Virus record (IMG/VR): IMGVR_UViG_3300009159_000409
Location: 1 to 20,700 of that record
From: a virus
DNA: 20,700 nt
Reading direction: 5' to 3' (one strand)
Below are positions 1 to 20,514 of the stretch, piece by piece. Under the pieces are notes generated by a model that saw only the letters and a program-made list of their open reading frames with translations, had not been told where the DNA came from and searched no databases. The number at the start of each line of letters is the position of its first letter. Within the stretch, counting starts at the first letter, position 1. The position numbers and the translations under genes were made by a program.

Positions 1-73
1 ACTTTTGATCAGTAATCGATTTATAGAATATAGTTGTTTCAAAACAATCTAAATCTAATGTTAAATTTTTCAT
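1..73 (-). CDS. Unidentified protein, N-terminal fragment
   Basis: Only the first 24 codons are inside the window; the gene runs off the left edge. The peptide begins MKNLTLDLDCFETT and matches no family I can name from so short a piece. The start is supported by its junction with the upstream amidotransferase: that gene's TAA stop and this ATG share a base (TAATG), an arrangement typical of translational coupling. It is therefore probably co-transcribed with the amidotransferase and may belong to the same pathway, but that is inference from position only. Confidence 0.6.
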   Translation of the reverse strand, partial: MKNLTLDLDCFETTIFYKSITDQK

Positions 74-759
74 TACAATGTAAAAAAGTGTGATTCAGCG
101 TCAAAAATTTCAGAAACAATAAATCTATTATCTAAATACCAAAGTATTTTCTTTTCCGGTACCTCAATCATATCATCAACTTGTACTGATGAAAATTCAT
201 CACCCTTATAAAACAATGTACTACTTAACCTTGCAATGAATAATTCTATAAATTTGGTATCCCATATCCAATTACTAAACGTACCATTAAGTTGACTTAA
301 TGCTTCTTTAATAGCCTTATCTGATAAATGTGAGTGTTTATTATTTAAACAACCATCAATTAATCTCGGTATAATAGAACTATCTACGTTTGAAGTATTA
401 TCCGTATAATTATGTTTCTCTTTTAATTCTGTAAAATTTGTTAATACCCCATTATGAGCTACAACAAAATTACCATATTCAAATGGGTGCATAGATGATG
501 TACCTTCCCTATCTATACCAGTTGGTGCTTGTATGTGACCTGTAAAATATGTTGGTAACATATTTCGGTATTGTTCAAGAGATTTAAGACCTCTATTAAT
601 ATCATTATCTTTTATGATAGATAAGTTATGAAATACACAAGTACCACTATGTAGACCATGTGCTACTACACAACCAAAAGAGAATGTACCTCTTTGTTTA
701 TTAGCTTCATAAAGCTGAAAAAATCGATCTAAATTACTTGCACCAAAGATTGCGCACAT
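73..759 (-). CDS. Class II (Ntn-type) glutamine amidotransferase
   Basis: This 228-residue protein is a stand-alone glutaminase domain of the GlmS/PurF/AsnB type, which releases ammonia from glutamine for a partner enzyme. The start at 759 puts a cysteine at residue 2, the expected N-terminal nucleophile after Met removal; a GTG 11 codons upstream (792) would bury it and is rejected. Motifs seen: C2; RG at 23-24; GHIQAPT at 74-80; HP at 91-92; AHNG at 101-104; D126. In GlmS-type enzymes the GH motif normally carries an Arg that holds the glutamine carboxylate; here it is Gln77. There is no synthase domain, so a separate acceptor enzyme is needed. The QueC-like gene on the same strand about 840 bases upstream is the obvious candidate, by analogy with fused Gat-QueC proteins. 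Alternatives are an AsnB-like or an unknown amidotransferase role. Confidence 0.88.
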   Translation of the reverse strand: MCAIFGASNLDRFFQLYEANKQRGTFSFGCVVAHGLHSGTCVFHNLSIIKDNDINRGLKSLEQYRNMLPTYFTGHIQAPTGIDREGTSSMHPFEYGNFVVAHNGVLTNFTELKEKHNYTDNTSNVDSSIIPRLIDGCLNNKHSHLSDKAIKEALSQLNGTFSNWIWDTKFIELFIARLSSTLFYKGDEFSSVQVDDMIEVPEKKILWYLDNRFIVSEIFDAESHFFTL

Positions 760-800
760 ATTTTTATAATAGTGACTTATATTTAAAACCACAAGTAAAC

Positions 801-808
801 AATAAATA
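801..808 (+). promoter_or_regulatory. Late-promoter-like box (AATAAATA) before acidic protein gene
   Basis: AATAAATA ends exactly 5 nt before the ATG at 814. It differs by one base from the T4 late box TATAAATA, which gp55-type sigma recognises about 13 to 6 bases before the transcription start. If that geometry holds, transcription would begin at the A of the ATG. There is no Shine-Dalgarno sequence. Promoter function is inferred. Confidence 0.5.
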
Positions 809-813
809 TTTTC

Positions 814-1605
814 ATGGCCAAATCAGACAGTCAACTCATTTTTGAACAGTATTTTCATTCAATTACCGATATAGTGGAAGAAGCTAGAGGTAGGAAGAAA
901 CAATTTTCCGAACGTGTTAAACAAATCATAGAAGACCCTAAAACAGGTGAAAAACGTTTAGAATCATACTATGAAATGATACAAAGAATTAGGCGTCAAC
1001 AGTTAATGAAACAAGCTGATGCAGAGTATGAAGCAGAAAAAGCTGCAGAAATAGGTGGGGCCACACCTGAAACTGAAGCAGAAGTTGAATCTGAAGTAGA
1101 AACACCAAAAGAAATAGAAGTTAAAGCAGAAGAACCGAGTGTTGAGCCAGATGAAGATGTTGATATTGATGTATCAACAGGTCCTATTGAAGATGTAGGT
1201 AGTTTTAATTTCAATGCTACCCTTACAGCTGGTGATTTAGCAGAGAAAGCACCATCAGATGGTATGTCTCAAGATATTATTAGATATGTTGAAGATACAC
1301 CAGCTACAGGTCAAGAAATTGTTAATTATCTTGTTGGTAAAGGTGTGAATGAAGCAGATGCAAAAAATAAAGTTGCAAGTTTAGCAATGCTTGACATTTT
1401 AAAATTCTACTTCAGTGGTGAAGAAAAACCGGTAAAACCAAGTATAATTGATTTACCGGATATCGATGATGAAGATGAAACAGATGATGAAGATCTTGAA
1501 GATTACGAAGATGCTTTAGGTGATTTACCTGAAGTAGAAGATGAGAGTGAAGATTTACACATGACTGAATATTCTGAAGAAGAATTACCTGAAGATGAAC
1601 TTTAA
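814..1605 (+). CDS. Acidic protein of unknown function
   Basis: I do not recognise this 263-residue protein. The N-terminal part (about 1-75) is charged and predicted helical, with many Lys/Arg and Gln. Residues about 80-125 are a Glu/Pro/Val-rich low-complexity linker. Residues about 150-205 look like a compact helical domain of winged-helix size (segment MSQDIIRYVEDTPATGQEIV onward), and the C-terminal 50 residues are strongly acidic. The N-terminal style (MAKSDSQLIFEQYF) resembles small head or core-associated proteins of T4-like marine phages, but that is an impression and not an identification. It lies on the opposite strand to both neighbours, divergent from the amidotransferase and overlapping the QueC stop by 4 bases tail to tail. 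It has its own AATAAATA box, so it is probably expressed late and separately. Confidence 0.85.
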   Translation: MAKSDSQLIFEQYFHSITDIVEEARGRKKQFSERVKQIIEDPKTGEKRLESYYEMIQRIRRQQLMKQADAEYEAEKAAEIGGATPETEAEVESEVETPKEIEVKAEEPSVEPDEDVDIDVSTGPIEDVGSFNFNATLTAGDLAEKAPSDGMSQDIIRYVEDTPATGQEIVNYLVGKGVNEADAKNKVASLAMLDILKFYFSGEEKPVKPSIIDLPDIDDEDETDDEDLEDYEDALGDLPEVEDESEDLHMTEYSEEELPEDEL

Positions 1606-2339
1606 TTAACAGGTTTGCAGTTATATTTAACCCAAATATTGGTTAAATCTTGCTTATATTGTATAGGATCTATATAGCCTGCGTCTATAAATCCTTTAAT
1701 ACGTAAACTACTACTCACACTTTCAGCATCAGCTACAACATTACCACTATAACAGGTGTATGTATTTCCAAAATTTACACCTAATTTAATACCATTCAAA
1801 ATAATATCTTTTTTTGACATATTAATTAAAGGAGTTTCTACAGATATCTGTATATGCCTATTCAAACAAAGTAACTTATTTAAGTAATCTCTGAATTCAT
1901 TACTAGAATCCCAATAACCAGCTAAACTATCTGCTTGAGCTGAACCATGCCAAATAGTACAAGCATTATTAGCCTCTGCAAGTGATGCTAATATACTAAT
2001 AAACATTAAATTACGATTAGGTACATAACTCAATGGCTGAGCTTCCCCCATTACTTTTTTTACATTGGGTGTTGTAATATTATCATTAGTAAGTGAGCTA
2101 GTTGGAGCAATTTCTCTAATAAAGCTCACATCAATAGTCTTATATTCTATAGTCTGTGTATGTGCAATTTTTAACTTAACGTGCTCTAATTGTTTATTTG
2201 CACAATTTTTCTCAATTATATGTCTTTGATTATAATTAAAAAATACAGCAATAATATCATCATAGTGGTTAATTGCTTTATGTAAAAGAACACTGGAATC
2301 CATACCACCACTTACACCTAAAACCACTTTTTTACGCAT
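1602..2339 (-). CDS. queC: QueC-like PP-loop ATPase (7-cyano-7-deazaguanine synthase family)
   Basis: This 245-residue protein belongs to the family that converts 7-carboxy-7-deazaguanine to the amide and nitrile (preQ0) using ATP and ammonia. Seen: PP-loop SGGMDSS (10-16); YVPNRN (105-110), a QueC signature; DSLAGYWDSSNEF (137-149) in place of the usual GYPDC-type segment; and TYTCY (193-197) followed by the region that normally carries CxxCxxC. Of the four zinc cysteines of canonical QueC only Cys196 remains; the other three positions are Ala/Asp, Val/Ser and Ser, depending on alignment. Length is normal. Catalysis may therefore differ, for example by stopping at the amide or using another substrate. 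The gene follows the carbamoyltransferase by 25 bases. Phage QueC proteins usually feed DNA 7-deazaguanine modification; that role is inferred here. No QueD, QueE, FolE or DpdA homologue was seen in the window. Confidence 0.85.
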   Translation of the reverse strand: MRKKVVLGVSGGMDSSVLLHKAINHYDDIIAVFFNYNQRHIIEKNCANKQLEHVKLKIAHTQTIEYKTIDVSFIREIAPTSSLTNDNITTPNVKKVMGEAQPLSYVPNRNLMFISILASLAEANNACTIWHGSAQADSLAGYWDSSNEFRDYLNKLLCLNRHIQISVETPLINMSKKDIILNGIKLGVNFGNTYTCYSGNVVADAESVSSSLRIKGFIDAGYIDPIQYKQDLTNIWVKYNCKPVN

Positions 2340-2369
2340 ATAAGTATATTGATAGGTTTTATAAATAGG

Positions 2370-3944
2370 TCAAGATTTTTTTACAAGAATATTTTCTAAC
2401 ACAACATAATCCATTTGTGTTTTATCTAAAACTGATAAAGCATCTCTGTATGTATTTAATATTGGTTTACCAGCTAAATTAAATGATGTATTTAATAAAA
2501 CACCATGTTCACATATTTTACTGACTTCAGTTAATACATCATATAACCACTGATTTTGTTCTCTTGTAATAGTTTGTACTCTTGCAGTACCATCAATATG
2601 TGTAATTGATGAAAGCTTTTCTCTCCATTCTTGTTTTACTTTAGGACAGAAAAGCATGTGTTTACACTCACCTTCCCATTCAAAATATTTGGAAACATCT
2701 TCTAATCTTACAACAGGTGCAAACGGTCTATACCATTCTCTATTCTTAACTTTCTTATTAAGAATATCTTTCATTTCAGGAAATGCAGGGTTACACATTA
2801 TACTTCTATGACCTAATGCTCGTGGACCATGTTCACATTTACCTTGCACCACACCAACTATCATTCCATCTTTAAAAAGCTTAGCCACATTTTGAGGTGT
2901 TGCATATTGAGTAATTCTATTTTCAACAATTTCTGGTAAAGTACACCTATCAAACACATCCACACCACCATATGTAATATCCACTGGTGTGGAAGGTCTG
3001 GTAAAATCTAATAATTGACCTAATGCAATACCACAATCACTACTATTTGGTGCAATAAATATCTTACGGTCGGTAAACATTTCTTTTAATTTTTGATTAA
3101 GAAGTATATTCAAACCACATCCACCAGTTAAGATAATTGGATAATTACTGTATTTATCAAAGTAAGGTTGTGCAATTTTTAAAAATATATATTCAAAAAC
3201 CTTTTGTGATGTTGCAGCTAAATTGTAACCTGTTTCACCATTAAGTCTAAGACCATCATTAAAATGTATTTTTATACGTTCACACAGCTTTTTAATCTTA
3301 GCTTGATAGGTTTCACCGCAAGGTTTTGATAGATAAAATTCTATCATAGCTGGTTCCCACTCAGGAACTGATACACCAAAATTACAAAGACCCATTATTT
3401 TACCACTATAAACAAGATTACCATCTCCAATCCATTCTTGTTTAATTGGTTCAATATAATGGGCAAAAATCATGTATGCAAATCCAGCATCAAGTAAATG
3501 ATTACCTATTTGCACTATACCGTCTTTTCTATTTGCAGTGTATACATTGAAGAAACCATCATCACCACCACCATCAAAAGAGAAAATAAGAGCGTCGTCG
3601 TAATCTGTTTGATAATACGACGACGCTGCATGAGCTCTGTGATGTGTAGTTTTTACTACTTTTTTAGCAGGAATAAAGTCTTTAAATGCAGTTGTAACAT
3701 TATTATGGGTAACATCGGTATTATTGTGTATTAATGTATCGACTGGAAACTCAATACCAAGTTCGTTTTGTAGATAAATAAGAGCTGAATGAAGCCCGAA
3801 TTCTCTATTTTTAGCGGTTTTGTATTGAGCTAAACCTAAATTCTTACTATTAAAGAACCTTTCAAACTCTAAAACGGTATACTTGCCATCCTGTTCAATT
3901 GCTAAGCCACCGTTATGAGAGCCGTAAAAACCGATATTCACCAT
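2370..3944 (-). CDS. Carbamoyltransferase, NodU/CmcH/TobZ family
   Basis: At 524 residues this is a full-length member of the family that transfers a carbamoyl group from carbamoyl phosphate, via carbamoyl-AMP, to a hydroxyl. Seen: N-terminal YGSHNGG (7-13); HHRAHAASSYY (101-111) with the metal-binding histidines; FSFDGGGDDG (121-130); LTGGCGLN (272-279) of the Kae1-like fold; and the C-terminal domain signature EHGPRALGHRSI (371-382), then NREWYRPFAPVV. Start: ATG 4 bases after the uvsX stop, with TAAATA (3955-3950) ending 5 nt before it. It sits between the recombinase and the QueC-like gene. Family members modify antibiotics and Nod factors, and phage versions have been linked to carbamoylation of hydroxymethylated bases. 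The acceptor here is unknown: a modified DNA base or a glycan from the nearby glycosyltransferases are both possible. Confidence 0.93.
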   Translation of the reverse strand: MVNIGFYGSHNGGLAIEQDGKYTVLEFERFFNSKNLGLAQYKTAKNREFGLHSALIYLQNELGIEFPVDTLIHNNTDVTHNNVTTAFKDFIPAKKVVKTTHHRAHAASSYYQTDYDDALIFSFDGGGDDGFFNVYTANRKDGIVQIGNHLLDAGFAYMIFAHYIEPIKQEWIGDGNLVYSGKIMGLCNFGVSVPEWEPAMIEFYLSKPCGETYQAKIKKLCERIKIHFNDGLRLNGETGYNLAATSQKVFEYIFLKIAQPYFDKYSNYPIILTGGCGLNILLNQKLKEMFTDRKIFIAPNSSDCGIALGQLLDFTRPSTPVDITYGGVDVFDRCTLPEIVENRITQYATPQNVAKLFKDGMIVGVVQGKCEHGPRALGHRSIMCNPAFPEMKDILNKKVKNREWYRPFAPVVRLEDVSKYFEWEGECKHMLFCPKVKQEWREKLSSITHIDGTARVQTITREQNQWLYDVLTEVSKICEHGVLLNTSFNLAGKPILNTYRDALSVLDKTQMDYVVLENILVKKS

Positions 3945-3948
3945 GAAC

Positions 3949-5052
3949 TTATTTACTTACATTGTACCTATAAGCCACACTCAATTTTTTATCCAACTCT
4001 GGAATAATGTGATTTTCCCAAAAATCTATATCTTTAGACCAATTCTTATAGTAACCAATCTTATCACCTTTCTTATACTTACCATCTTCAGAATCAATTC
4101 CAATCTGGAATGTAGGTCCATTAGATATAAGCACACCATGATTTACAGCCATATCACGTAAACCGCTGTATTTATCCAAACCTGTCTTAAAGTTAAGATA
4201 AATACCAGCTTGTAGATACTGTGGTATGAAACGGTTTTTTACAGTTAAGAATTTAAGAGTCTTACCTGAATAATTACGCGCTTCAGTAAGCATCTCATCT
4301 TGATCGTTATTTTCATCTTGCTTCTCGTTGGATGCTGCAATTTGACACAAAACACTTGCAAGATATGTTGGCCCACTACCACCAGCCTGGTTCTTTACCA
4401 AAGAAGGATACATTGCAGTAGGATCACCATAAACATGATTACTAAACAATATGGTTGTACCCGCTGCAGCAGCCTTGTATGTAATAAGACGCATCATAGC
4501 CTTTAAAGTCTTAGCACGGAGACCCATATCAGATGCAGATTTATCCTTTACAACGTCATCGAGTTCTTTCTGTGAAGCTAAGTTACCAAGTGAGTCAACA
4601 CTCACTATAAACTTACCTTGCAGACCTTTCTCAACTACACTATCAAGGAAGGTGGATAGCTGATTACGGCACTGTTCAACTGTATATACAGGTACATACT
4701 TCGTATGTGCAGGGTCAAGACCAACATTGATAGCACTCTCCTTATCAACTGCAAACTCAGTATCAAAAATAACTGGCATCAAACCAAGTTTTTTCTGTGC
4801 AATACCAAGAATTTTATTGATAATATAAGTCTTACCGACCCCGGATTCACCAGAGAAACCAACAATGCGACCCTTAGGTACACCACCATCTCTCAATTTA
4901 CCGCTAATAATTGCATTTAGCGCATAGCACCCAGTGTCGTACCAGGTATCAACATTAGACAAGGCACTCTCACTCAAGAAAGTGGCCTCAGGATTTAATT
5001 TATCAAGACGTTCAAAAACGTCATGTAGTTCATTTTTATTCATACTATTCAT
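3949..5052 (-). CDS. uvsX: UvsX, RecA-like strand-exchange recombinase
   Basis: This phage RecA-family recombinase coats single-stranded DNA and drives strand invasion for recombination-dependent replication and repair. In the 367-residue form chosen here the Walker A motif GESGVGKT is at about 68-75, the catalytic-Glu region VIFDTEFA at about 94-101, and Walker B with the following Ser/Leu (FIVSVDSLGNL) at about 148-158. The loop with SNHVYGDPTAMYPS and QAGGSGPTYL corresponds to the DNA-binding and filament region. Length is close to T4 UvsX (391). Start: the frame is open to 5100, but the extension has no phage-like character. ATG 5052 has AGGTGG 12 bases upstream and overlaps the upstream stop by 8 bases; ATG 5043 is an equally plausible start. 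It should work with the UvsY-like protein and gp46/47 encoded elsewhere in the window. Confidence 0.95.
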   Translation of the reverse strand: MNSMNKNELHDVFERLDKLNPEATFLSESALSNVDTWYDTGCYALNAIISGKLRDGGVPKGRIVGFSGESGVGKTYIINKILGIAQKKLGLMPVIFDTEFAVDKESAINVGLDPAHTKYVPVYTVEQCRNQLSTFLDSVVEKGLQGKFIVSVDSLGNLASQKELDDVVKDKSASDMGLRAKTLKAMMRLITYKAAAAGTTILFSNHVYGDPTAMYPSLVKNQAGGSGPTYLASVLCQIAASNEKQDENNDQDEMLTEARNYSGKTLKFLTVKNRFIPQYLQAGIYLNFKTGLDKYSGLRDMAVNHGVLISNGPTFQIGIDSEDGKYKKGDKIGYYKNWSKDIDFWENHIIPELDKKLSVAYRYNVSK

Positions 5053-5398
5053 CAAACAGCTTAACCACCTTAGGTTGAGCATCCTGTTGCTGTGGTGCAA
5101 CAGGAACTATAGCCTTTAGGTATTGAGCTTTAAGAGCTTCACTAATTGCACCTTCAGTACAGAATGTGCAAGTCTTAGTGTTAAATTTCCATGTGGTGTT
5201 TACTACTTCAGGAGCAAGAAGCTCTTTAAAGAAGTATGGAATAGTCTGAATCTGAATTTGACCATTTGCACCCTGATTAACTACTATAATAGCAGGATTT
5301 TTTACAAACATGACCTTACCATCTGGTGTAGTATTTTCAATTACACCAAGAATATAACGTCCGGCACTATCAACGAATAATTTAATTTCATTTTCCAT
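5045..5398 (-). CDS. Small conserved-looking phage protein between gp43 and UvsX
   Basis: This 117-residue protein is of unknown function. The first 65 residues look like an all-beta unit: IKLFVDSAGRYILGVI, then VMFVKNPAIIVV, then IQIQTIPYFFKELL. The size and strand pattern would fit a small Sm/LSm-like barrel, but this is only a fold guess. A Gln/Pro/Ala linker leads to the acidic C-terminal end VVKLFDE. The middle holds CTFC (two cysteines three apart) without a second pair, so a zinc site is not supported. Proteins of this general style occur beside uvsX in T4-like marine phages. It overlaps the uvsX start and follows the polymerase by 30 bases, so it is likely part of the replication operon. 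TATAATA ends 5 nt before its ATG. Confidence 0.85.
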   Translation of the reverse strand: MENEIKLFVDSAGRYILGVIENTTPDGKVMFVKNPAIIVVNQGANGQIQIQTIPYFFKELLAPEVVNTTWKFNTKTCTFCTEGAISEALKAQYLKAIVPVAPQQQDAQPKVVKLFDE

Positions 5399-5428
5399 AA
5401 TATTATTATAATGGTAAAAAATAAAATT

Positions 5429-8014
5429 TCAACTTAGTAAGTCAAATAAATCAATCTGCACAGCACGACTAGGTATATGTGCATTCCATTTTACTGCTTC
5501 ATAAATACCTTCAATAGGTGCAAATACCATCTTTTCAAACGACTTTTCATAATCAGGTTTAAAATATTTACTAAACTCTTTAGGCCATTGGTATTTAAAT
5601 CCTATTACATCTACATTGAAAGTATTAGGTTTTTGAACGTAAACAAATCTCACCTTATCACCAGAACTAATATGTTCATAATACTTATCAAGTTTATCTT
5701 TCTCAATTATTTTATTATAAAAATATGAAGCTTTACAATGTATAGGCATACCTTTAGCAGGTATAAAGTCCTTACACTTGGAAGCATATTCCTCATAGTT
5801 TTTTAACCCCATTACCTTACAAACACTCTCTACAGGTAATTTCATAAATTCATCATATACCTTCTTTAATACTTCATTAGTTTTAGCATAGTTTTGCGTC
5901 ATTAACATTACTTCTATAATTTCTTTAAGTAGTGGTTTTAATGAATTCGGCGTAGATGTTCTAACCACTTCAACACCAGTATACTTAGTCTTATTCATTT
6001 GCACACCTTCTTCATCAAGGACATGCAAAATATAACGTTTCTTCTGTAAGAATATACCTACATCACCTATATACTCACGTTTAAAACTAAACCTACAATC
6101 TTTACTATTTAACTCTTTTATACCCCATTCTTTAATTGAAGTGTTGAGAGCATTAACAATCTCACCTTCAAGTTTATAAACATCTTGCGACACAATACCT
6201 TTATCATCTATAAAAGGTATATTAAGTTTTTCAATTAGATGTCTAATTGAAACATAAGAGCTATCAGTATCGTTATATATAATAGGACTATCTTGTTCAA
6301 TTTGCTCAGAAGTCATACCAGTTTTTTCACAGATATACTTCTTAATAATCTCATTACTCTGTTTAATTACAGCTTGGCCGGTGAGAGTAATAGAAGCAGC
6401 AATATCGTCATCACCAATAGGTGCTTGTTTGTTACCAAAATAACCGTAAATTGAGTTAATTAAGATTTTTACGGTTAACTGACGAGTACCAAAACGTTGC
6501 ATGTCTGCTTCAAGTTCAGTATAGTTAGGATCATTTTTACTAACTTTAGATAAGTTTTTCTTAAGTTCAACGTACTTCTTTTTAAGTTCATTACGTTTAC
6601 CAAAGTAATAATCTACCACTTCAGGTATAATACCTTTTTCTTTTTGAGTAAATAAACAATTAGCTTTAGTAACTGTTATCTCATGATCTTTAACAAACTT
6701 ATTAAAGATAGGTTGCGATACTACTTTTTGCTTACCATTAGTAAGTAGTATAGTATATTCACCGTTATCAAAACTAGTAATTTTACCGATTTTAGTCTCA
6801 GGTGATAAATTAAGACTAATCATTACAGTCGGATATAGACTGGTAGCATCAAATGAAAATATGTATTTTTGAAAACCACCCTTAGGATCCGCTACATATG
6901 CACCAGGATTCTTATGATCAGGGTCATTACGAATAAAGGTGGGTACAATTTGACCCCTAAATCTACCTCTAATAGCAATTGCACCGTTAATGATAGACAA
7001 GCTACCCATTGCGCTTTCAAACGTTGTTAAACCAACGTAAGCAAGCATTCTTACTAAACTCAAATATTGTAATTTTTCTTCAAGTTTCGTCAACAGACGC
7101 ACGTCTTGAAGGTTGTAATCAATAAATGTTTCCCAGTTATTATCAGCCAAACTAAACAAGTCTTGATTTTCAAACTTAACCTTTTTATCACCTACTTCCA
7201 ATTCAGCAATATAATCAAGCTTATAAGACTCCCGTAATGGTGCAAATCGTTTATATATATCAAGATAGTCTAATAGAGATACACCATCAATATGCCAGCG
7301 AATTTGCTCCCTACCAAAGTCACCTCTGAATGTTCTTGAATATATTTTATTTACCGGTGATAGACGTTTAGTTTCATCCTCACCTAATATACGTGTACAT
7401 CTATTAATAATGTATGGAATATCAAAAAATTCAGAATTCCAACCACTAAGAATATCGGGGTAGTCTTTCTCAAGATAACCAATAAACCCTAAAAGTAAAT
7501 CACGTTCTGTCTTACAATAATAATAAACATGATCTTTATTTTTAGATGTATAAGGTTTCAAACCCCAAGTATGATACTCTTTAGAAATACTATCATAAAC
7601 GGTAATAACGTTTATAGTATGATTTGCAGTAATAATATCAGGAAATCCGTCAGGTGAATAAGTCTCAATGTCAAGAAGTAACATCTTGATAGGATTCTTA
7701 GTAAACTCAAGCTTTTCGTTTTCTTGCCAGTAACTATCAATTAAAAATTGTTGTATTTGTGGTAAGTTTTCAAAAACTCTAGTAATATTATTATCTTTAA
7801 TAAATCTACTTCTATCGTATTGAGTCTGAAAAGTGAGTTTCTTTAATGGAGTCTTAAATAGAGACGTAGCACTTCCCTGTGCACTTGTAGCAACCTCAGT
7901 ATATAGATATGGTTGATAAGTATGATCAACTGTAATTCTTTTACCATTTTCATCCCATGTATACAACCTCATTAGTTGTTCTCTAGGATGGTAGGTAACG
8001 TTTCTATAACTCAT
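5429..8014 (-). CDS. 43: DNA polymerase, family B with 3'-5' exonuclease (gp43-like)
   Basis: This replicative polymerase is 861 residues (T4 gp43 is 898). Exonuclease motifs: Exo I LLLDIETYS with D115 and E117; Exo II SGWNSEFFDIPY with N193 and D199; Exo III YNLQD with Y300 and D304. Polymerase motifs: motif A FSFDATSLYPTVM with D389; motif B KILINSIYG with K516, N520 and Y523-G524; motif C YNDTDSSYVS with D582 and D584. All catalytic residues are present, so it should be active in synthesis and proofreading. The last residues, QIDLFDLLS, resemble a sliding-clamp-binding peptide. A perfect 8-bp dyad lies directly against the start codon, with TATAAATA overlapping it. T4 gp43 represses its own translation by binding an RNA hairpin at its start, so a similar operator is possible. 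Confidence 0.98.
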   Translation of the reverse strand: MSYRNVTYHPREQLMRLYTWDENGKRITVDHTYQPYLYTEVATSAQGSATSLFKTPLKKLTFQTQYDRSRFIKDNNITRVFENLPQIQQFLIDSYWQENEKLEFTKNPIKMLLLDIETYSPDGFPDIITANHTINVITVYDSISKEYHTWGLKPYTSKNKDHVYYYCKTERDLLLGFIGYLEKDYPDILSGWNSEFFDIPYIINRCTRILGEDETKRLSPVNKIYSRTFRGDFGREQIRWHIDGVSLLDYLDIYKRFAPLRESYKLDYIAELEVGDKKVKFENQDLFSLADNNWETFIDYNLQDVRLLTKLEEKLQYLSLVRMLAYVGLTTFESAMGSLSIINGAIAIRGRFRGQIVPTFIRNDPDHKNPGAYVADPKGGFQKYIFSFDATSLYPTVMISLNLSPETKIGKITSFDNGEYTILLTNGKQKVVSQPIFNKFVKDHEITVTKANCLFTQKEKGIIPEVVDYYFGKRNELKKKYVELKKNLSKVSKNDPNYTELEADMQRFGTRQLTVKILINSIYGYFGNKQAPIGDDDIAASITLTGQAVIKQSNEIIKKYICEKTGMTSEQIEQDSPIIYNDTDSSYVSIRHLIEKLNIPFIDDKGIVSQDVYKLEGEIVNALNTSIKEWGIKELNSKDCRFSFKREYIGDVGIFLQKKRYILHVLDEEGVQMNKTKYTGVEVVRTSTPNSLKPLLKEIIEVMLMTQNYAKTNEVLKKVYDEFMKLPVESVCKVMGLKNYEEYASKCKDFIPAKGMPIHCKASYFYNKIIEKDKLDKYYEHISSGDKVRFVYVQKPNTFNVDVIGFKYQWPKEFSKYFKPDYEKSFEKMVFAPIEGIYEAVKWNAHIPSRAVQIDLFDLLS

Positions 8015-8033
8015 AATATACTATGAGTATATT
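8015..8033 (-). promoter_or_regulatory. Hairpin abutting the polymerase start codon, possible translational operator
   Basis: AATATACT and AGTATATT form a perfect 8-bp inverted repeat with a 3-nt loop, ending one base before the ATG at 8014. In T4 and RB69 the polymerase binds a hairpin at this place in its own mRNA to block translation. The sequence differs from T4, and the stem is AT-rich and weak, so function is inferred from position and symmetry only. Confidence 0.45.
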
Positions 8034-8037
8034 TATA
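8030..8037 (-). promoter_or_regulatory. TATAAATA late-promoter box upstream of DNA polymerase
   Basis: A perfect match to the T4 late box TATAAATA, reading leftward, ends 15 nt before the polymerase ATG. With T4 geometry, transcription would start about 9 nt before the ATG and skip the left arm of the overlapping dyad. One exact match in AT-rich DNA can be chance, so confidence is moderate. Confidence 0.45.
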
Positions 8038-8050
8038 TTTTATTGGAACA

Positions 8051-9253
8051 TCAAGGATTAATCTTATTAAGAAGTTTCCTCTCTGGGGATCTATAGGAAT
8101 GTAAATACATCTCTACATATTTACCAATATTTTCAGGATTTTCTAAGAATCTACTTTCTGCAAATGATCTGGCTGATGTAGATGATCTCTTATACGCACC
8201 TTCTTTTAATGTATTATCTATTTGATCAATCATTTCATCACCTGTTTTAAATCTAATAGGAGCATTCTTATATGTTTCAATATCTTGACACACTACAGGA
8301 ATACCGTAGCATGCCCCTTCTAGATATTTTAAATCGCTTTTGCATTTATTAAATGTATTATCAGCTAACGGTTCAATCATCATTTGAACATTCAAATTAT
8401 TGATTGTATATGGGTAATCCATAATTTTAGACCATGGTACAAATTCAATATCACCAGATTTAACATAGGGAATAAGAGTATGTGGTACAGCACCCATAAA
8501 TACCCACCTATATTTCTTAACCGTTTTAATTATAGCTTCATTTACGTGAAAGAAGTCATCACGCTGTTTAATTCTATTATCAACATCAAAATGAGCAGCA
8601 GAACCATTATAAAGAATACGAGGTCTTTTCTTATTATCGTTTAAATTCTTTAACAATTTATCTTTATCATAAAAATTACCCATCCAGAATCGCGGTACAT
8701 AGTTAGGTAATACAGTTACATTTTGATTTGTAAGTTTTGATTTATAATAATCTTTCATGTAATCACATGTGACAGTGATTTCATCACTCAACTCCATTAT
8801 TTGTTGTGCAGAATTTCTTACTTCATCAGATGTAAATGCTGTTTTAAATTTGTTATAATCAGGAATTTCTTCTCTAAACACTACATCATCAATTTCATAA
8901 ACAATTTTAAAATCACATTTTGTTTGTATTAATTTAAGAAATTTAATAAACTCTAATTGATGTGGTGAAGCTTGACGTTGAATTCGTATAGTTTTCATTA
9001 ATCTATACAAATTTTCATCTTTAGCCATTAAAATACTACTAAATGATAACAAATCTCCTCTAAGATTCATTATCATCTCAGGCCAAATTAATCTCCAACA
9101 ACCACAACCACCATGATCAGCTAAAAAATTATATACTTTTGGAACATCATTTACATTTTGCTTACGTTGAGGTTCAGAGGCTTTTTGTACTGGAGCATTA
9201 AAAACTGGTTTGAAAGGTGCAGCAAATGGTGAATTTGCCATGGTATTTAGCAT
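8051..9253 (-). CDS. GT-B fold glycosyltransferase (GT4-like)
   Basis: This 400-residue protein looks like a glycosyltransferase with two Rossmann-type halves. The first ~35 residues are a Pro/Ala/Lys-rich tail. The N-terminal half begins at YNFLADHGGCGCWRLIWP and includes KIVYEIDDVVF. The C-terminal half includes RPRILYNGSAAHF, RWVFMGAVPH, IEFVPW and KSDLKYLEGACYGIPVVCQD, which matches the donor-binding segment of GT4-type enzymes where Glu contacts the nucleotide sugar. Substrate cannot be read from sequence. It could act on virion glycans, host surface polysaccharide or modified DNA bases. Start: ATG 9253 has TATAAAAT ending 5 nt before it; ATG 9241 (residue 5) is an alternative. It lies between gp46 and DNA polymerase, all leftward. 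Confidence 0.85.
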   Translation of the reverse strand: MLNTMANSPFAAPFKPVFNAPVQKASEPQRKQNVNDVPKVYNFLADHGGCGCWRLIWPEMIMNLRGDLLSFSSILMAKDENLYRLMKTIRIQRQASPHQLEFIKFLKLIQTKCDFKIVYEIDDVVFREEIPDYNKFKTAFTSDEVRNSAQQIMELSDEITVTCDYMKDYYKSKLTNQNVTVLPNYVPRFWMGNFYDKDKLLKNLNDNKKRPRILYNGSAAHFDVDNRIKQRDDFFHVNEAIIKTVKKYRWVFMGAVPHTLIPYVKSGDIEFVPWSKIMDYPYTINNLNVQMMIEPLADNTFNKCKSDLKYLEGACYGIPVVCQDIETYKNAPIRFKTGDEMIDQIDNTLKEGAYKRSSTSARSFAESRFLENPENIGKYVEMYLHSYRSPERKLLNKINP

Positions 9254-9258
9254 ACCAT
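9240..9258 (-). promoter_or_regulatory. Small dyad covering the glycosyltransferase start codons
   Basis: ATGGTAT and ATACCAT form a perfect 7-bp inverted repeat with a 5-nt loop. Both possible start codons of the glycosyltransferase (9253 and 9241) touch its arms, and the loop and right arm spell CTAAATA leftward. In mRNA it could occlude the start. The stem is short and could be chance. Confidence 0.3.
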
Positions 9259-9270
9259 ATTTTATACAAC

Positions 9271-11076
9271 TTATTCAGTGTATTCCACTCTAGTAGTTAT
9301 ACCGTTTTTCTTTTCTAAACATACAACTTCACCGGTTGCAAACTTACCACTCTCTTTTCTATGTGATATAACCATAACACATTCATTATACTCATCAACT
9401 CTCTCTTTAAGAATGTTGAGTACTAGCTCAATACCACGTTCATCAACACTACTGTCTAATAATTCATCATATATGCTAATGTTAATTGCAACACCACCTT
9501 GTAATCTTCTAACATCCATGAAAGTAAACAAACACGATAAATCGATAGCTTTTCTTTCAGCACCTGAAAAATTGAAATATGAACATGTTTTACCTTTTTC
9601 ATTGGTAAATTTTTCATCAAAAAATTCATCAAAAATACAAGTGCAATTACTATCCATCTTCTTCAAATAATAAGCAATTCTATTATTAAACAATTCCAAT
9701 ATACGTTTAATAATGAACGACTTAACACCTTCTTCAGATACAATGTATTTCACTGCATCCAACATATTAATAGTATTCTTTAAATCAGTGAGTTTAGTCT
9801 CAGAATCTTTAACTTTAACAGTTGTTTGATCAATTAAAGTATCAAAATTGGTAATATCACTATTGAGTTCTTCTAATTCTTTAACAATAGTTATATTCCA
9901 GTCTTCTAGACTCTTAATTGCAGATGAAAGTGATTTTTTAGATTCTAACTTCTTAGAAATTTGTGAAATTTCATTATTAAGTACTGTAATTTTTTCTTTT
10001 ATTTTATCTTTTGCACCTTTATAAGTGTTAATAAGCTTTTTCTGTTCAGTAAGCTTATCATTTAAGGTGTTTATCTCATTTTTAATATTTTCTTTAGCTG
10101 TATTAATATGAGCTCTATCATTTACATCAATAGGTTTAAGACAAACCTCACAAAGATCATTTTTAGTACCAATTTTAGTAGATTTAGTAGTTAAAACATT
10201 GATTTCAGTCTGATGAGTTGTGGTAGAAACGGTGAGATTATGTAACTCTTTATCGAGTTTATCTATATTTGTATTAAAATCCTCAATCTTTTTCTGTCTA
10301 CCCTCTATATCTATATCACCACTGTCAGAAGTATCAGCATTTTTAAGTTTCTGTATTTTAACATTGTTTTCTTCTAATTGTTTTTCTTTAGAAATCTTAG
10401 AACTCTTACGGTGATCAAGAACACCTTGTCTTTGACTAATGTAGTTATTTAAAGCAGTGACCGTGGATTCGTGTTTAGCTGAATCTATGTCACAAATTTT
10501 CTTATTTTCATTATATGAAGATCTAACTTTAGATAACATATCACTGAAAATTTCAAGATTAAAAATACCTTCAATAAACTTTCTTTTCTCCACCATCTTT
10601 TTGGCCATAAAAGGTGTAGAAGCATTTGCACTCATAATAATACAATTTTGAAACACCTCTTGATTACAAGATATAAGATCAGTAATCAAATTATTAGTAC
10701 CAGCCATTGTATGCATAGTGATATTTTCATCATCACAATACAACGCCAACTCTGAAGGGTTAATTTTTCTAATAACTACATAATTCTTACCTACACCATT
10801 ATTAATAATGGTGAAATCTAATTTTACTTCACAAATACCATTGGTGATATTATTAACAATTAGATCTTTTTTAAGATCTCTAACAGTATTACCATAGATA
10901 GCAAAATTAATTGCATCTAAGATTGTAGTCTTTCCAACAGCATTACGTCTATCTTCTTTATCTTTATTAACACCGGTAATAATATGAAGCCCTTTGCTAA
11001 AGCAAACAACAACAGGAGTATTACCAACTGATAAAAAGTTTTGAATCGAGACACTGTTAAAATTAATGTATTTCAT
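9271..11076 (-). CDS. 46: gp46-like SMC/Rad50 ATPase subunit of the recombination nuclease
   Basis: This 601-residue Rad50/SbcC-type ATPase pairs with gp47 to resect DNA ends for recombination and host DNA breakdown. Seen: an N-terminal P-loop region from G35 to NAVGKTT (45-51); a long central region rich in Lys, Glu and Asn typical of antiparallel coiled coil (about 185-300 and 325-440); a zinc-hook CEVC at 309-312 between the two coils; the ABC signature FSGAERKAIDLS (503-514); Walker B IYDELLDSS (535-543); and the H-loop VISHR near the C-terminus. T4 gp46 has 560 residues. The P-loop is longer than usual, with charged residues where the first Gly/Ala of GxxxxGK normally lies (Arg43). Its ATG overlaps the TGA of the upstream glycosyltransferase (ATGA), so translation is probably coupled. 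Confidence 0.95.
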   Translation of the reverse strand: MKYINFNSVSIQNFLSVGNTPVVVCFSKGLHIITGVNKDKEDRRNAVGKTTILDAINFAIYGNTVRDLKKDLIVNNITNGICEVKLDFTIINNGVGKNYVVIRKINPSELALYCDDENITMHTMAGTNNLITDLISCNQEVFQNCIIMSANASTPFMAKKMVEKRKFIEGIFNLEIFSDMLSKVRSSYNENKKICDIDSAKHESTVTALNNYISQRQGVLDHRKSSKISKEKQLEENNVKIQKLKNADTSDSGDIDIEGRQKKIEDFNTNIDKLDKELHNLTVSTTTHQTEINVLTTKSTKIGTKNDLCEVCLKPIDVNDRAHINTAKENIKNEINTLNDKLTEQKKLINTYKGAKDKIKEKITVLNNEISQISKKLESKKSLSSAIKSLEDWNITIVKELEELNSDITNFDTLIDQTTVKVKDSETKLTDLKNTINMLDAVKYIVSEEGVKSFIIKRILELFNNRIAYYLKKMDSNCTCIFDEFFDEKFTNEKGKTCSYFNFSGAERKAIDLSCLFTFMDVRRLQGGVAINISIYDELLDSSVDERGIELVLNILKERVDEYNECVMVISHRKESGKFATGEVVCLEKKNGITTRVEYTE

Positions 11077-11777
11077 TTATTTAGAACAAATCTATTGTAT
11101 ATTTTATTAAAGCATGTGGCTGCTTCATCTTTGTTTAATATCGGTAACATGTTTGGAAGATAATTATACTTTGTGCGGAATAATTTTAACCCTCTAAGCA
11201 TTATATCTTCATCAATCTTAATTTCTGAATCCAATTCATTTAAAGTTTGTAAAACCGGTGAAGTAAAATACCCTACAGGTCCAACCAACCCTTTGTTAAA
11301 CAATCTATAGTAATAATCAAAAATTTCAAATGAATCTTTATATTTTTCATCCAAATAACCTATTTGCTTTACACAGTTTTTATTGATATAAATAAAATTT
11401 TTAAAGAATCTATCAGCTAATTGAATTGAAATATTTTCATAATCATAGGAAGCAAAACTATTACCACCATTAAACAGCATATGAACACCAGTAGCATTAA
11501 ATGCATCTACATACTTTTGAAATATAGAATCATCATCTACAATAGTAGTATCTCGAATAATAAAAATATGATCACATCCATGCTGTGTTACATATCTTAA
11601 ACCATCATTTATACATGCAGCATAAAACTTCTTATCGTGATATGTAATAGTATTACTTTCAAACAATTTACCATTACAATCATTAGTTACTACGATGTTA
11701 TATTTGTTAAGTTTGTTGATTAAAGCTGCACAATTTGCAACATTCTTTTCAAGATAGATAATAATTCCAATATTCAT
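11073..11777 (-). CDS. GT-A-like (GT2-type) glycosyltransferase inserted between gp47 and gp46
   Basis: This 234-residue protein begins MNIGIIIYLEKN, a Rossmann-type first strand. It contains FYAACINDGLRYV (51-63) followed by CDHIFIIRDTTIVDDDS (68-84), which matches the helix-strand-DxD-like pattern of GT2-type glycosyltransferases. A later part with GYLDEKYKDSFEIFDYYYRL fits their acceptor region with an acidic general-base area. It looks short but complete. Start: ATG 11777 has AAGGAG 8 nt upstream, the best Shine-Dalgarno in the window, and overlaps the gp47 stop by ATGA; the GTG at 11786 is rejected because it would abut that Shine-Dalgarno. The sugar and acceptor are unknown. It is unusual for a glycosyltransferase to separate the two subunits of the gp46/47 complex. 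Confidence 0.75.
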   Translation of the reverse strand: MNIGIIIYLEKNVANCAALINKLNKYNIVVTNDCNGKLFESNTITYHDKKFYAACINDGLRYVTQHGCDHIFIIRDTTIVDDDSIFQKYVDAFNATGVHMLFNGGNSFASYDYENISIQLADRFFKNFIYINKNCVKQIGYLDEKYKDSFEIFDYYYRLFNKGLVGPVGYFTSPVLQTLNELDSEIKIDEDIMLRGLKLFRTKYNYLPNMLPILNKDEAATCFNKIYNRFVLNK

Positions 11778-12811
11778 TTTAGGCACTCCTTATATAGTTC
11801 GTTGATATATTTACGCACAACTGGTTTATTTTCTATCTCCATAAGATCGATGAATTCATCAATCATTGTAGAAATATCAATACCCTTTAAATTAATATCA
11901 AAATCTGTGTTAATTTCTATCTTATCAACATCAATCTTATAGTCTACACTATAACCGATAGGTTTAAATTGTGAAATTTTAGCTGATATTTTATCCACTT
12001 CTTCATGGGTGACTTTCTTATCAACATGTAACCTAACAATATTACTATTAAAAATATCATTTTTATTATCTAAATTATCAATCTCACTTACTTTAACAAT
12101 CAAATGTTTTGGAGATACATCATTTTCTATACGTGTATAAGTACTATCAATAAAATCATATAAATAAACATACTTTGATCTTTCAGCATCACCGAAATCC
12201 ATTTGAAAGGTGTTACCTACATATATAATTTTACCGTTATCAAATATTCTTTCTTGATTAAGATGAAAATGACCGGTAAAAGTCATAGTGGAACTATTAA
12301 GAAGATCTTTATAATCCTCACCATGATCACAAATTTTGAAGTTATTAATTTGAAAGTTAGCTAATTCAAAATGACCAAATACAACATCGCTTCTAGGAAC
12401 ATCTTTTACAGGAACCCCCCAAGGTACGAAAGTTACTTATTTATTAAAAACATCATGAGTTTCGAGAGTATCAAATACTTTTACATTATTTCTACCTTTA
12501 ATAATTGATAAGGAATTAATAGTAGCTTCATTTTTAAGATAACAATCATGGTTACCAGGTATCATGACTATATTAAAACATGATAAAATATCTAAAATTT
12601 TAGATGCAACATTAATAGTAGCAACATTAATTTCATCTCTATGATGAAACCAATCTCCACAAAACATTATATCTTCAATATCGTGCTTTTCTAAAATTAC
12701 TTTTAACCATTTTGCATAGTTAATTGCTATATCATGCCACATGGAGTTGTTTTGGTGAACTCCTAAATGCAAATCAGCTATAACAGCAATTTGTCTATTT
12801 TTAAATATCAT
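11774..12811 (-). pseudogene. 47: gp47-like Mre11/SbcD nuclease gene interrupted by one in-frame TAA
   Basis: The frame from ATG 12811 to TGA 11774 spans 346 codons (T4 gp47 has 339) and stays in one frame throughout, broken only by TAA at 12439-12437 (codon 125). Before the stop are the phosphoesterase motifs IADLHLG (D13, H15), CGDWFHH (D53) and IPGNHD (86-89). Directly after it are VTFVPWG (126-132), VVFGHFE (143-149) and FTGHFH (178-183), so metal ligands lie on both sides. There is no frameshift and no inserted sequence. The first in-frame ATG after the stop is at 12286, already past the GHFE motif, so restart would not give an active enzyme by itself. Possibilities are a nonsense mutation, a sequencing or assembly error, or stop-codon readthrough. 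All three stops are used normally elsewhere, so TAA is not reassigned. Confidence 0.88.
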
Positions 12812-19818: not shown

Positions 19819-20514
19819 ATGGTTTTAGATTTCCATAGAAACTATATATTTCAGCATATTTTTAAGACTGGTGGTACTACTATTAAACATACGCTGTATT
19901 CATATAGAATACCTGATCAAAAGATATTATCACAATGGAATGAAAATAAATTATATAGAGCTTATAACAATGCTTTACCGTATGAATTTGGTAATGAACA
20001 CATTACTTTTGATCAATTTAATGTAATATGGCCTTATATTGATTTTAATAAATACTATAAATTTTGCTTTATAAGACACACATATGACTGGATAGTTGCA
20101 GGTTTTAAACACTGTTGCGATGCATCTTATTTTAAGAATTTTCCAGAAGGTCCAGTTAGAGATGAACAAATATCTAAATTTACATTTAATTTTTATGTAA
20201 GAAATTGGGTTATACCTGATTTTACACAATTAGATTATGCAAAATTTAACGATAAAGTAATTGTAGATAAAATTGGTAGATTTGAAAATTTACAGGAAGA
20301 TTTTGATAAAATTGTAGATACAATTGGCTTACCTAAGAAAAAGCTTGATAAATACAATTCGAGTGAAGGTAGAGATTATGCGGTAAAAGATACAGCTATA
20401 AAAGCCAATCAACATTATTCTTTATGGTTTACTGACGAACTCTTAGAATTAGTAAATAAAAGATTTAAAGAGGAAATAGATTACTTTAATTTTAAATTTG
20501 AAGATAAACGTTAA
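19819..20514 (+). CDS. PAPS-dependent sulfotransferase-like protein
   Basis: This 231-residue protein fits the carbohydrate sulfotransferase family, which moves sulfate from PAPS to sugars or other acceptors. Seen: the 5'-phosphosulfate loop in YIFQHIFKTGGTTIKHTL (9-26, with K16-T-G-G-T); the 3'-phosphate-binding segment YYKFCFIRHTYDWIVAGFKH (79-98), matching the usual FVRNPYDRLVSAY pattern with R87 but His88 where Asn is common; and IGRFENLQEDFDKI near residues 152-165, also typical of the family. No signal peptide or membrane anchor is visible, so it would act in the host cytoplasm. It may sulfate a glycan made by the phage's glycosyltransferases. The gene is 36 bases after the previous one and overlaps the leftward gene at the window end by 4 bases, tail to tail. 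Confidence 0.85.
   Translation: MVLDFHRNYIFQHIFKTGGTTIKHTLYSYRIPDQKILSQWNENKLYRAYNNALPYEFGNEHITFDQFNVIWPYIDFNKYYKFCFIRHTYDWIVAGFKHCCDASYFKNFPEGPVRDEQISKFTFNFYVRNWVIPDFTQLDYAKFNDKVIVDKIGRFENLQEDFDKIVDTIGLPKKKLDKYNSSEGRDYAVKDTAIKANQHYSLWFTDELLELVNKRFKEEIDYFNFKFEDKR

Follow-up and report, generated by a model that had tools for sequence, protein, structure and literature searches.

Does a virus that keeps a carbamoyltransferase gene beside genes for a QueC-like enzyme and a glutamine amidotransferase use the three proteins to build a modified DNA base? The question is raised by a 20.7-kb virus record with T4-like replication genes (IMG/VR record IMGVR_UViG_3300009159_000409, positions 1 to 20,700), which was analyzed over its full length and is called the window below. 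The first-pass annotation had proposed a base-modification module made of a NodU/TobZ-type carbamoyltransferase (CT), a QueC-like enzyme and a class II glutamine amidotransferase (Gat). All three genes were recovered on the minus strand at about the positions given there (Table 1), and their products pass the curated cut-offs of Pfam. The idea that CT links the other two had to be corrected: the order of transcription is UvsX, CT, QueC, an open reading frame (ORF) on the opposite strand, Gat and a gp41-like helicase, so that CT precedes QueC, and Gat and QueC are unfused genes separated by one ORF. The spacing is tight, with 4 nucleotides from the end of UvsX to the start of CT and 30 from the end of CT to the start of QueC.

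Conservation of the CT-QueC-Gat linkage

The family assignment of CT is based on matches to PF16861 (1.5e-61), PF02543 (2.4e-16) and PHROG 1601 (1.1e-116). Its relatives with solved structures are 7xb6, TobZ and GdmN, and the motifs HHxxHAASxYY, GPRALGxRS and LNTSFN align with TobZ. The NCBI equivalog for NodU is failed by a wide margin (NF041651, 136.4 versus a cut-off of 1000). By our position count, the TobZ residues W408, G421 and R423, picked from those named in PMC8670742 (eLife 2021), align with V, G and R of the window CT; the passages of this study do not specify which of the named residues distinguish base modifiers.

A profile scan with CT yielded 79 loci from the best 80 of 165 relatives. 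In 21 loci, CT shares 56% or more of its residues with that of the window; QueC follows CT in all of them, and Gat comes next in 20, the last one ending within QueC at the end of its contig. Because it recurs in every one of these loci, the arrangement of CT and QueC is not a matter of chance. Neighbor counts were based on 53 loci that remained from 77 after grouping at 95% identity. The twelve grouped loci nearest to the window CT all have QueC and Gat alongside, together with an opposite-strand ORF akin to that at 814-1605 in the same position; within 4 kb of the other 41 CT genes, Gat is absent and QueC occurs once. The succession of QueC and Gat at this locus is general among the relatives found. 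CT and the DNA polymerase diverge in step (91 and 92%, 74 and 72%, 60 and 60%), a pattern that, judged from these comparisons, sets CT apart from cargo genes that are readily gained and lost. Within one clade, CT belongs stably to the QueC-Gat operon. No report of CT together with QueC was found in searches of the open-licence literature; among the matches listed, only PMC8670742 uses the word carbamoyltransferase, and QueC does not occur in that paper.

Deazaguanine genes are also encountered near CT outside this clade. Within 10 kb of the 58 ungrouped other CT loci, QueC is present in four and FolE in nine, and four whole contigs of this second CT lineage harbor QueD, QueC, QueE and a transglycosylase, three of them with FolE as well. 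CT thus meets deazaguanine genes in two lineages; in the second one, CT itself is placed among sugar genes.

QueC, Gat and the deazaguanine pathway

The participation of QueC and Gat in the 7-deazaguanine pathway is highly probable. The window QueC scores 156.8 bits against PF06508 (7.3e-46; curated cut-off 22) and retains three QueC motifs as given in PMC13329287, namely, SGGxDS (SGGMDS), YxQxHxxE (YNQRHIIE) and VPxRN (VPNRN), so that the ATP motif and the greater part of the substrate motifs are preserved. Its AlphaFold model, with a predicted local distance difference test (pLDDT) score of 89.2, finds QueC 3bl5 as best match (5e-12), and the protein is accordingly modeled with the QueC fold. 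The YPDC position reads YWDS, and YWD is also present in KVP40-type and other relatives with a separate Gat. The zinc motif C(x)8CxxCxxC is degenerate, with three of the four cysteines gone and only the first one kept. Among 37 aligned QueC rows, CGxCxxC is kept in 21, lost in 15 and cut short in one. It is absent from twelve of twelve further CT-linked rows of the window's clade, and the zinc motif is missing in all 15 CT-linked QueC proteins of this clade that were scored. Three rows of the other CT lineage (one of them cut) lack it as well. A second QueC type without zinc cysteines (TSYKP...), which retains YPDC, was observed in this other lineage (L154:54-857, L134:14789-15640).

The history of this loss was followed on trees calculated by a quick method without bootstrap and with long-branch warnings, from which 14 near-copies or fragments had been left out. 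Loss of the zinc site requires two changes on the UvsX tree (30 loci) and a single one on the QueC tree calculated without the zinc region (support 93), which points to a probable transfer of zinc-less QueC from one core lineage to another. The absence of the zinc site from a QueC of the deazaguanine pathway raises the question whether zinc is needed for preQ0 or another product is made by this branch.

Gat matches PF13522 (2e-9; 38 bits, cut-off 27) and PF13537 (3.6e-8), both beyond the curated cut-offs, and its Cys2 and HNG motif are invariant across the four aligned relatives. The most likely start is the ATG at 759 rather than the GTG at 792, since the resulting MCAIFG... places the nucleophilic cysteine second and the aligned relatives begin there.

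The remaining steps of the pathway were located in the relatives. FolE, QueD and QueE share contigs with CT-QueC-Gat in G048, G049 and G050, QueD and QueE do so in G004, and QueF in G006. The large contigs G025 (193 kb) and G027 (230 kb) contain the whole gene set plus a transglycosylase candidate. G001, the twin of the window, shows only QueC and Gat of the preQ0 precursor genes within its 50.6 kb. Families were checked with Pfam for FolE and QueD (proteins of G002 and G004) and for QueF (G027), and with PHROGs for QueE, whose proteins stay below the NCBI cut-offs; a QueE search for further members of the window's clade returned G004 itself only. Another contig, L311 (11.6 kb), is filed under a Rhodobacteraceae metagenome-assembled genome and is probably of phage origin. 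Its positions 710-9572 comprise QueE, a phosphoribosyltransferase, QueD, FolE, a transglycosylase, a formyltransferase, a kinase-like gene, QueF and split QueC-Gat, and its QueC has four cysteines. A phosphoribosyltransferase gene adjoins deazaguanine genes at two places (L100:1404-1853, L311:2194-2649) and might recycle the guanine that is freed by transglycosylation.

The transglycosylase candidate is a protein of about 260 amino acids encoded beside QueF in Campylobacter phage CP220, G025 and G027. A model calculated from 23 relatives (pLDDT 93.0) resembles the archaeosine tRNA-guanine transglycosylase (TGT) 1iq8 (Z 18.0, root-mean-square deviation 2.9, 231 residues aligned) and DpdA 7ui4 (Z 17.2), and on the strength of this model the protein is a candidate for a small TGT-fold transglycosylase. 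Most relatives also encode a formyltransferase beside QueF (PF00551, 2e-13). We take the TGT-fold protein and the adjacent formyltransferase to correspond to the DpdA3 and DpdN reported by Cui et al. 2023. Of 46 contigs, seven contain the TGT-fold protein; five of these belong to the other CT lineage, and the remaining two are G025 and G027. DpdA2 was detected in four of 27 contigs, all four from another phage group, and a 9g-type DpdA gave no convincing match. PF01702 matched none of 13 contigs, which says little, as it also missed the DpdA2-bearing G032.

The surroundings of QueF were surveyed in the best 80 of 365 loci, 56 of which have at least 1.3 kb upstream. The kinase-like gene is located there in 52, the transglycosylase in 48 and the formyltransferase in 46 of these 56 loci. 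Only L231, L232, L234 and L235 lack both the kinase-like gene and the formyltransferase; their QueF proteins are the nearest to that of G006. L231 is nearly a copy of L232, and the latter belongs to G006, a contig with CT-QueC-Gat. A kinase-like homologue lies in G006 at 6029-6640. Of the first-pass annotation, the assignment of the locus to a 7-deazaguanine pathway is therefore supported: relatives with the same locus carry FolE, QueD, QueE, QueF and in some cases a TGT-fold transglycosylase, so that precursor genes and a transglycosylase occur in the lineage as a whole, and none of the latter was found in the window's subclade.

Possible acceptors of the carbamoyl group

In the scheme that we favor, the pathway genes would be scattered round a T4-like phage genome, the window holding the step of QueC and Gat. 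GTP would be converted to 7-carboxy-7-deazaguanine by FolE, QueD and QueE; Gat would release ammonia from glutamine, and zinc-less QueC would use it together with ATP to form preQ0, which QueF would reduce to preQ1. A transglycosylase would place the base into DNA, and CT would transfer a carbamoyl group from carbamoyl phosphate, with ATP, onto the deazaguanine side chain. The sequences show the three genes with their conserved linkage and the further pathway genes on contigs of relatives; each reaction, the entry of the base into DNA and, most of all, what CT carbamoylates are inferred, and we give the scheme as a whole slightly less than an even chance. Its last step is the tentative one: that CT acts on a deazaguanine is a conjecture backed by circumstantial evidence, and sugars are almost equally probable acceptors. 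Deazaguanines of phages shield DNA from restriction enzymes according to passages of PMC6884629, and a CT locked to QueC throughout a lineage would qualify as a candidate for forming a new base and, with it, a new chemistry against restriction.

Several observations weigh against this scheme. The window QueC remains below the cut-off of the NCBI equivalog TIGR00364 (139.9 versus 150.3 bits), as does that of L122 (143.1), whereas zinc-intact QueC proteins of L044 (154.8) and KVP40 (173.2) exceed it; the QueF of G006 misses its equivalog too (228.9 versus 293.45). The TGT-fold transglycosylase was found in none of the 19 CT-QueC contigs, all of them incomplete, and richer profiles detected neither it nor a formyltransferase in G001, G004, G006, G040, G044 and G048-G050. 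In the QueF slot of the window's subclade, transglycosylase, formyltransferase and kinase-like gene are gone and QueF alone is left. Zinc-less QueC occurs without CT in seven of the 20 zinc-less tree rows. The CT-QueC link represents a single gain on the UvsX tree (SH-aLRT, an approximate likelihood ratio test, 96), and owing to this one acquisition the many loci are not independent. Finally, the structure records of NodU/TobZ enzymes, where they state a specificity, name O-carbamoyltransferases.

The single gain of CT agrees with the explanation that QueC and Gat make a deazaguanine while CT is a NodU-like O-carbamoyltransferase of sugars, which came to stand beside QueC by chance and was kept there by the stable order of T4-like replication genes. 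The 81 proteins that adjoin the 41 other grouped CT genes include 30 matches to HtrL_YibB, 15 to Glycos_transf_2, eleven to N-acetylglucosamine glycosyltransferase, five to FkbM methyltransferase and four to carbamoyltransferase, and the 1,092-amino-acid protein of L142 (10070-13348) even fuses carbamoyltransferase, HtrL_YibB and family 2 glycosyltransferase domains. Sugar genes are also present in relatives of the window, with RmlD-, nucleotidyltransferase- and dehydratase-type genes in G001 and an epimerase near Gat in L122. Against a sugar acceptor speaks the location of CT in the replication region, where its place is kept in 21 of 21 loci and its rate of divergence equals that of the DNA polymerase. 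A different proposal, offered by Hutinet et al. for DpdA-less phages (passages of PMC6884629), would have the phage boost the queuosine of host tRNA by making preQ0 or preQ1 and leave its own DNA unmodified. It suits the missing transglycosylase and the solitary QueF of L231, L232, L234 and L235, but none of the contigs is complete, a TGT-fold protein accompanies these genes in wider relatives and CT would be left without a role; we consider it improbable.

Still less credence is due to a CT that makes 5-carbamoyloxymethylcytosine apart from the deazaguanine genes. The precedent is direct, as a phage-type carbamoyltransferase of the same family moved a carbamoyl group to the DNA base 5-hydroxymethylcytosine (5hmC) in vitro (passages of PMC8670742). 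The thymidylate-synthase-type family PF00303 was found in none of the 20 CT-QueC contigs tested, each incomplete, and the hydroxymethylpyrimidine route considered in the first-pass annotation is not supported; scans returned 0 of 4, 0 of 15 and 2 of 30, and both matches (G054, G056) belong to the other CT lineage.

A more specific form of the favored scheme is that CT replaced the preQ1 formyltransferase in the window's clade and N-carbamoylates preQ1 or dPreQ1. It draws on the loss of the formyltransferase beside a retained QueF in L231, L232, L234 and L235 and on the absence of any CT from 26 QueF contigs searched, 20 of which have the formyltransferase. On the other hand, neither transglycosylase nor kinase-like gene is left in this slot, two of the four loci are the near copies mentioned above, and L248, L249, L263, L265 and L308 lack the formyltransferase without evidence of CT; we consider the replacement rather unlikely. 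If true, virion DNA would contain 2'-deoxy-7-ureidomethyl-7-deazaguanosine (C13H18N6O5, [M+H]+ about 339.14 by our own arithmetic), made via a zinc-free, glutamine-fed QueC. To our knowledge, this base is unreported so far.

Neighboring genes and known systems

Table 1. Features of the window around the CT-QueC-Gat locus
Feature	Coordinates	Strand	Description
gp41-like (DnaB-type) helicase gene, 5' end	1..73	-	whole gene in G001, 20645-21973
Class II glutamine amidotransferase (Gat)	73..759	-	228 amino acids; Cys2 nucleophile, HNG motif; PF13522
Acidic ORF	814..1605	+	263 amino acids; between QueC and Gat; 4-nucleotide overlap with QueC 3' end
QueC-like ATP-dependent enzyme	1602..2339	-	245 amino acids; PF06508
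NodU/TobZ-type carbamoyltransferase (CT)	2370..3944	-	524 amino acids; both domains; PF16861, PF02543, PHROG 1601
UvsX-like recombinase	3949..5100	-	upstream neighbor of CT; PHROG 97, 5.4e-52

The contig G001 is 99.96% identical to the window across its full length, and G004 (31.1 kb) about 83%. The former allowed us to exclude a further modification enzyme at 1-73, as had been suspected for this partial gene: its complete product is a 442-amino-acid homologue (1e-40) of a CP220 protein whose annotation names a possible gp41-like primase-helicase, and the G001 DNA polymerase was likewise matched to CP220. The acidic ORF has no Pfam match at 0.01 and no PHROG match. The genes for gp46, gp47 and UvsW in the window were named by eye from their ORFs; scans of the window for Rfam families, tRNAs and tandem repeats returned none. 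The window also harbors a sulfotransferase-family gene (19819-20514) and two PHROG glycosyltransferase matches (8051-9253, 11073-11786). Among the relatives, the gp41-like helicase gene of G003 is seemingly split by an intein-like ORF that ends with ...FFANDILTHN (L013:6850-8587; by eye only), and the DNA polymerase of L011 (9404-13724) is seemingly divided between two ORFs that flank a PP-loop (TilS-like) gene and an ORF on the other strand; similarly short polymerase ORFs are present in L025, L026 and L120.

Among known systems, the fused Gat-QueC of Enterobacteria phage 9g (dG+ pathway, passages of PMC6884629) likewise combines a class II glutaminase with QueC in a deazaguanine pathway. It differs from the two separate genes of the window by its fusion and by a QueC with four zinc cysteines and YPDN instead of one cysteine and YWDS; given QueF in the window's relatives, the product would be preQ1 rather than archaeosine. 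Vibrio phage KVP40 has a separate Gat homologue directly after QueC, with FolE and QueF nearby, so that the novelty ascribed to unfused Gat and QueC was overstated. KVP40 is distinguished by a QueC with four cysteines that passes the NCBI cut-off, by an adjoining DpdA2 and by the absence of CT from the 8.7-kb stretch examined. The T4-like cassette of transglycosylase, formyltransferase, kinase-like gene and QueF accompanies split QueC-Gat in the wider relatives, whereas the window's subclade retains only its QueF. The Nol-like carbamoyltransferases of Synechococcus phages S-SCSM1 and Bellamy are homologues of CT (44.0 and 42.8% identity in the aligned region), but they are located in nucleotide-sugar and glycosyltransferase regions, which favors a sugar acceptor. 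The 5hmC carbamoyltransferase (passages of PMC8670742) is, like CT, a NodU/TobZ-type enzyme of phage origin, and it acts on a DNA base; its gene is linked to a thymidylate synthase homologue, whereas that of the window is linked to QueC.

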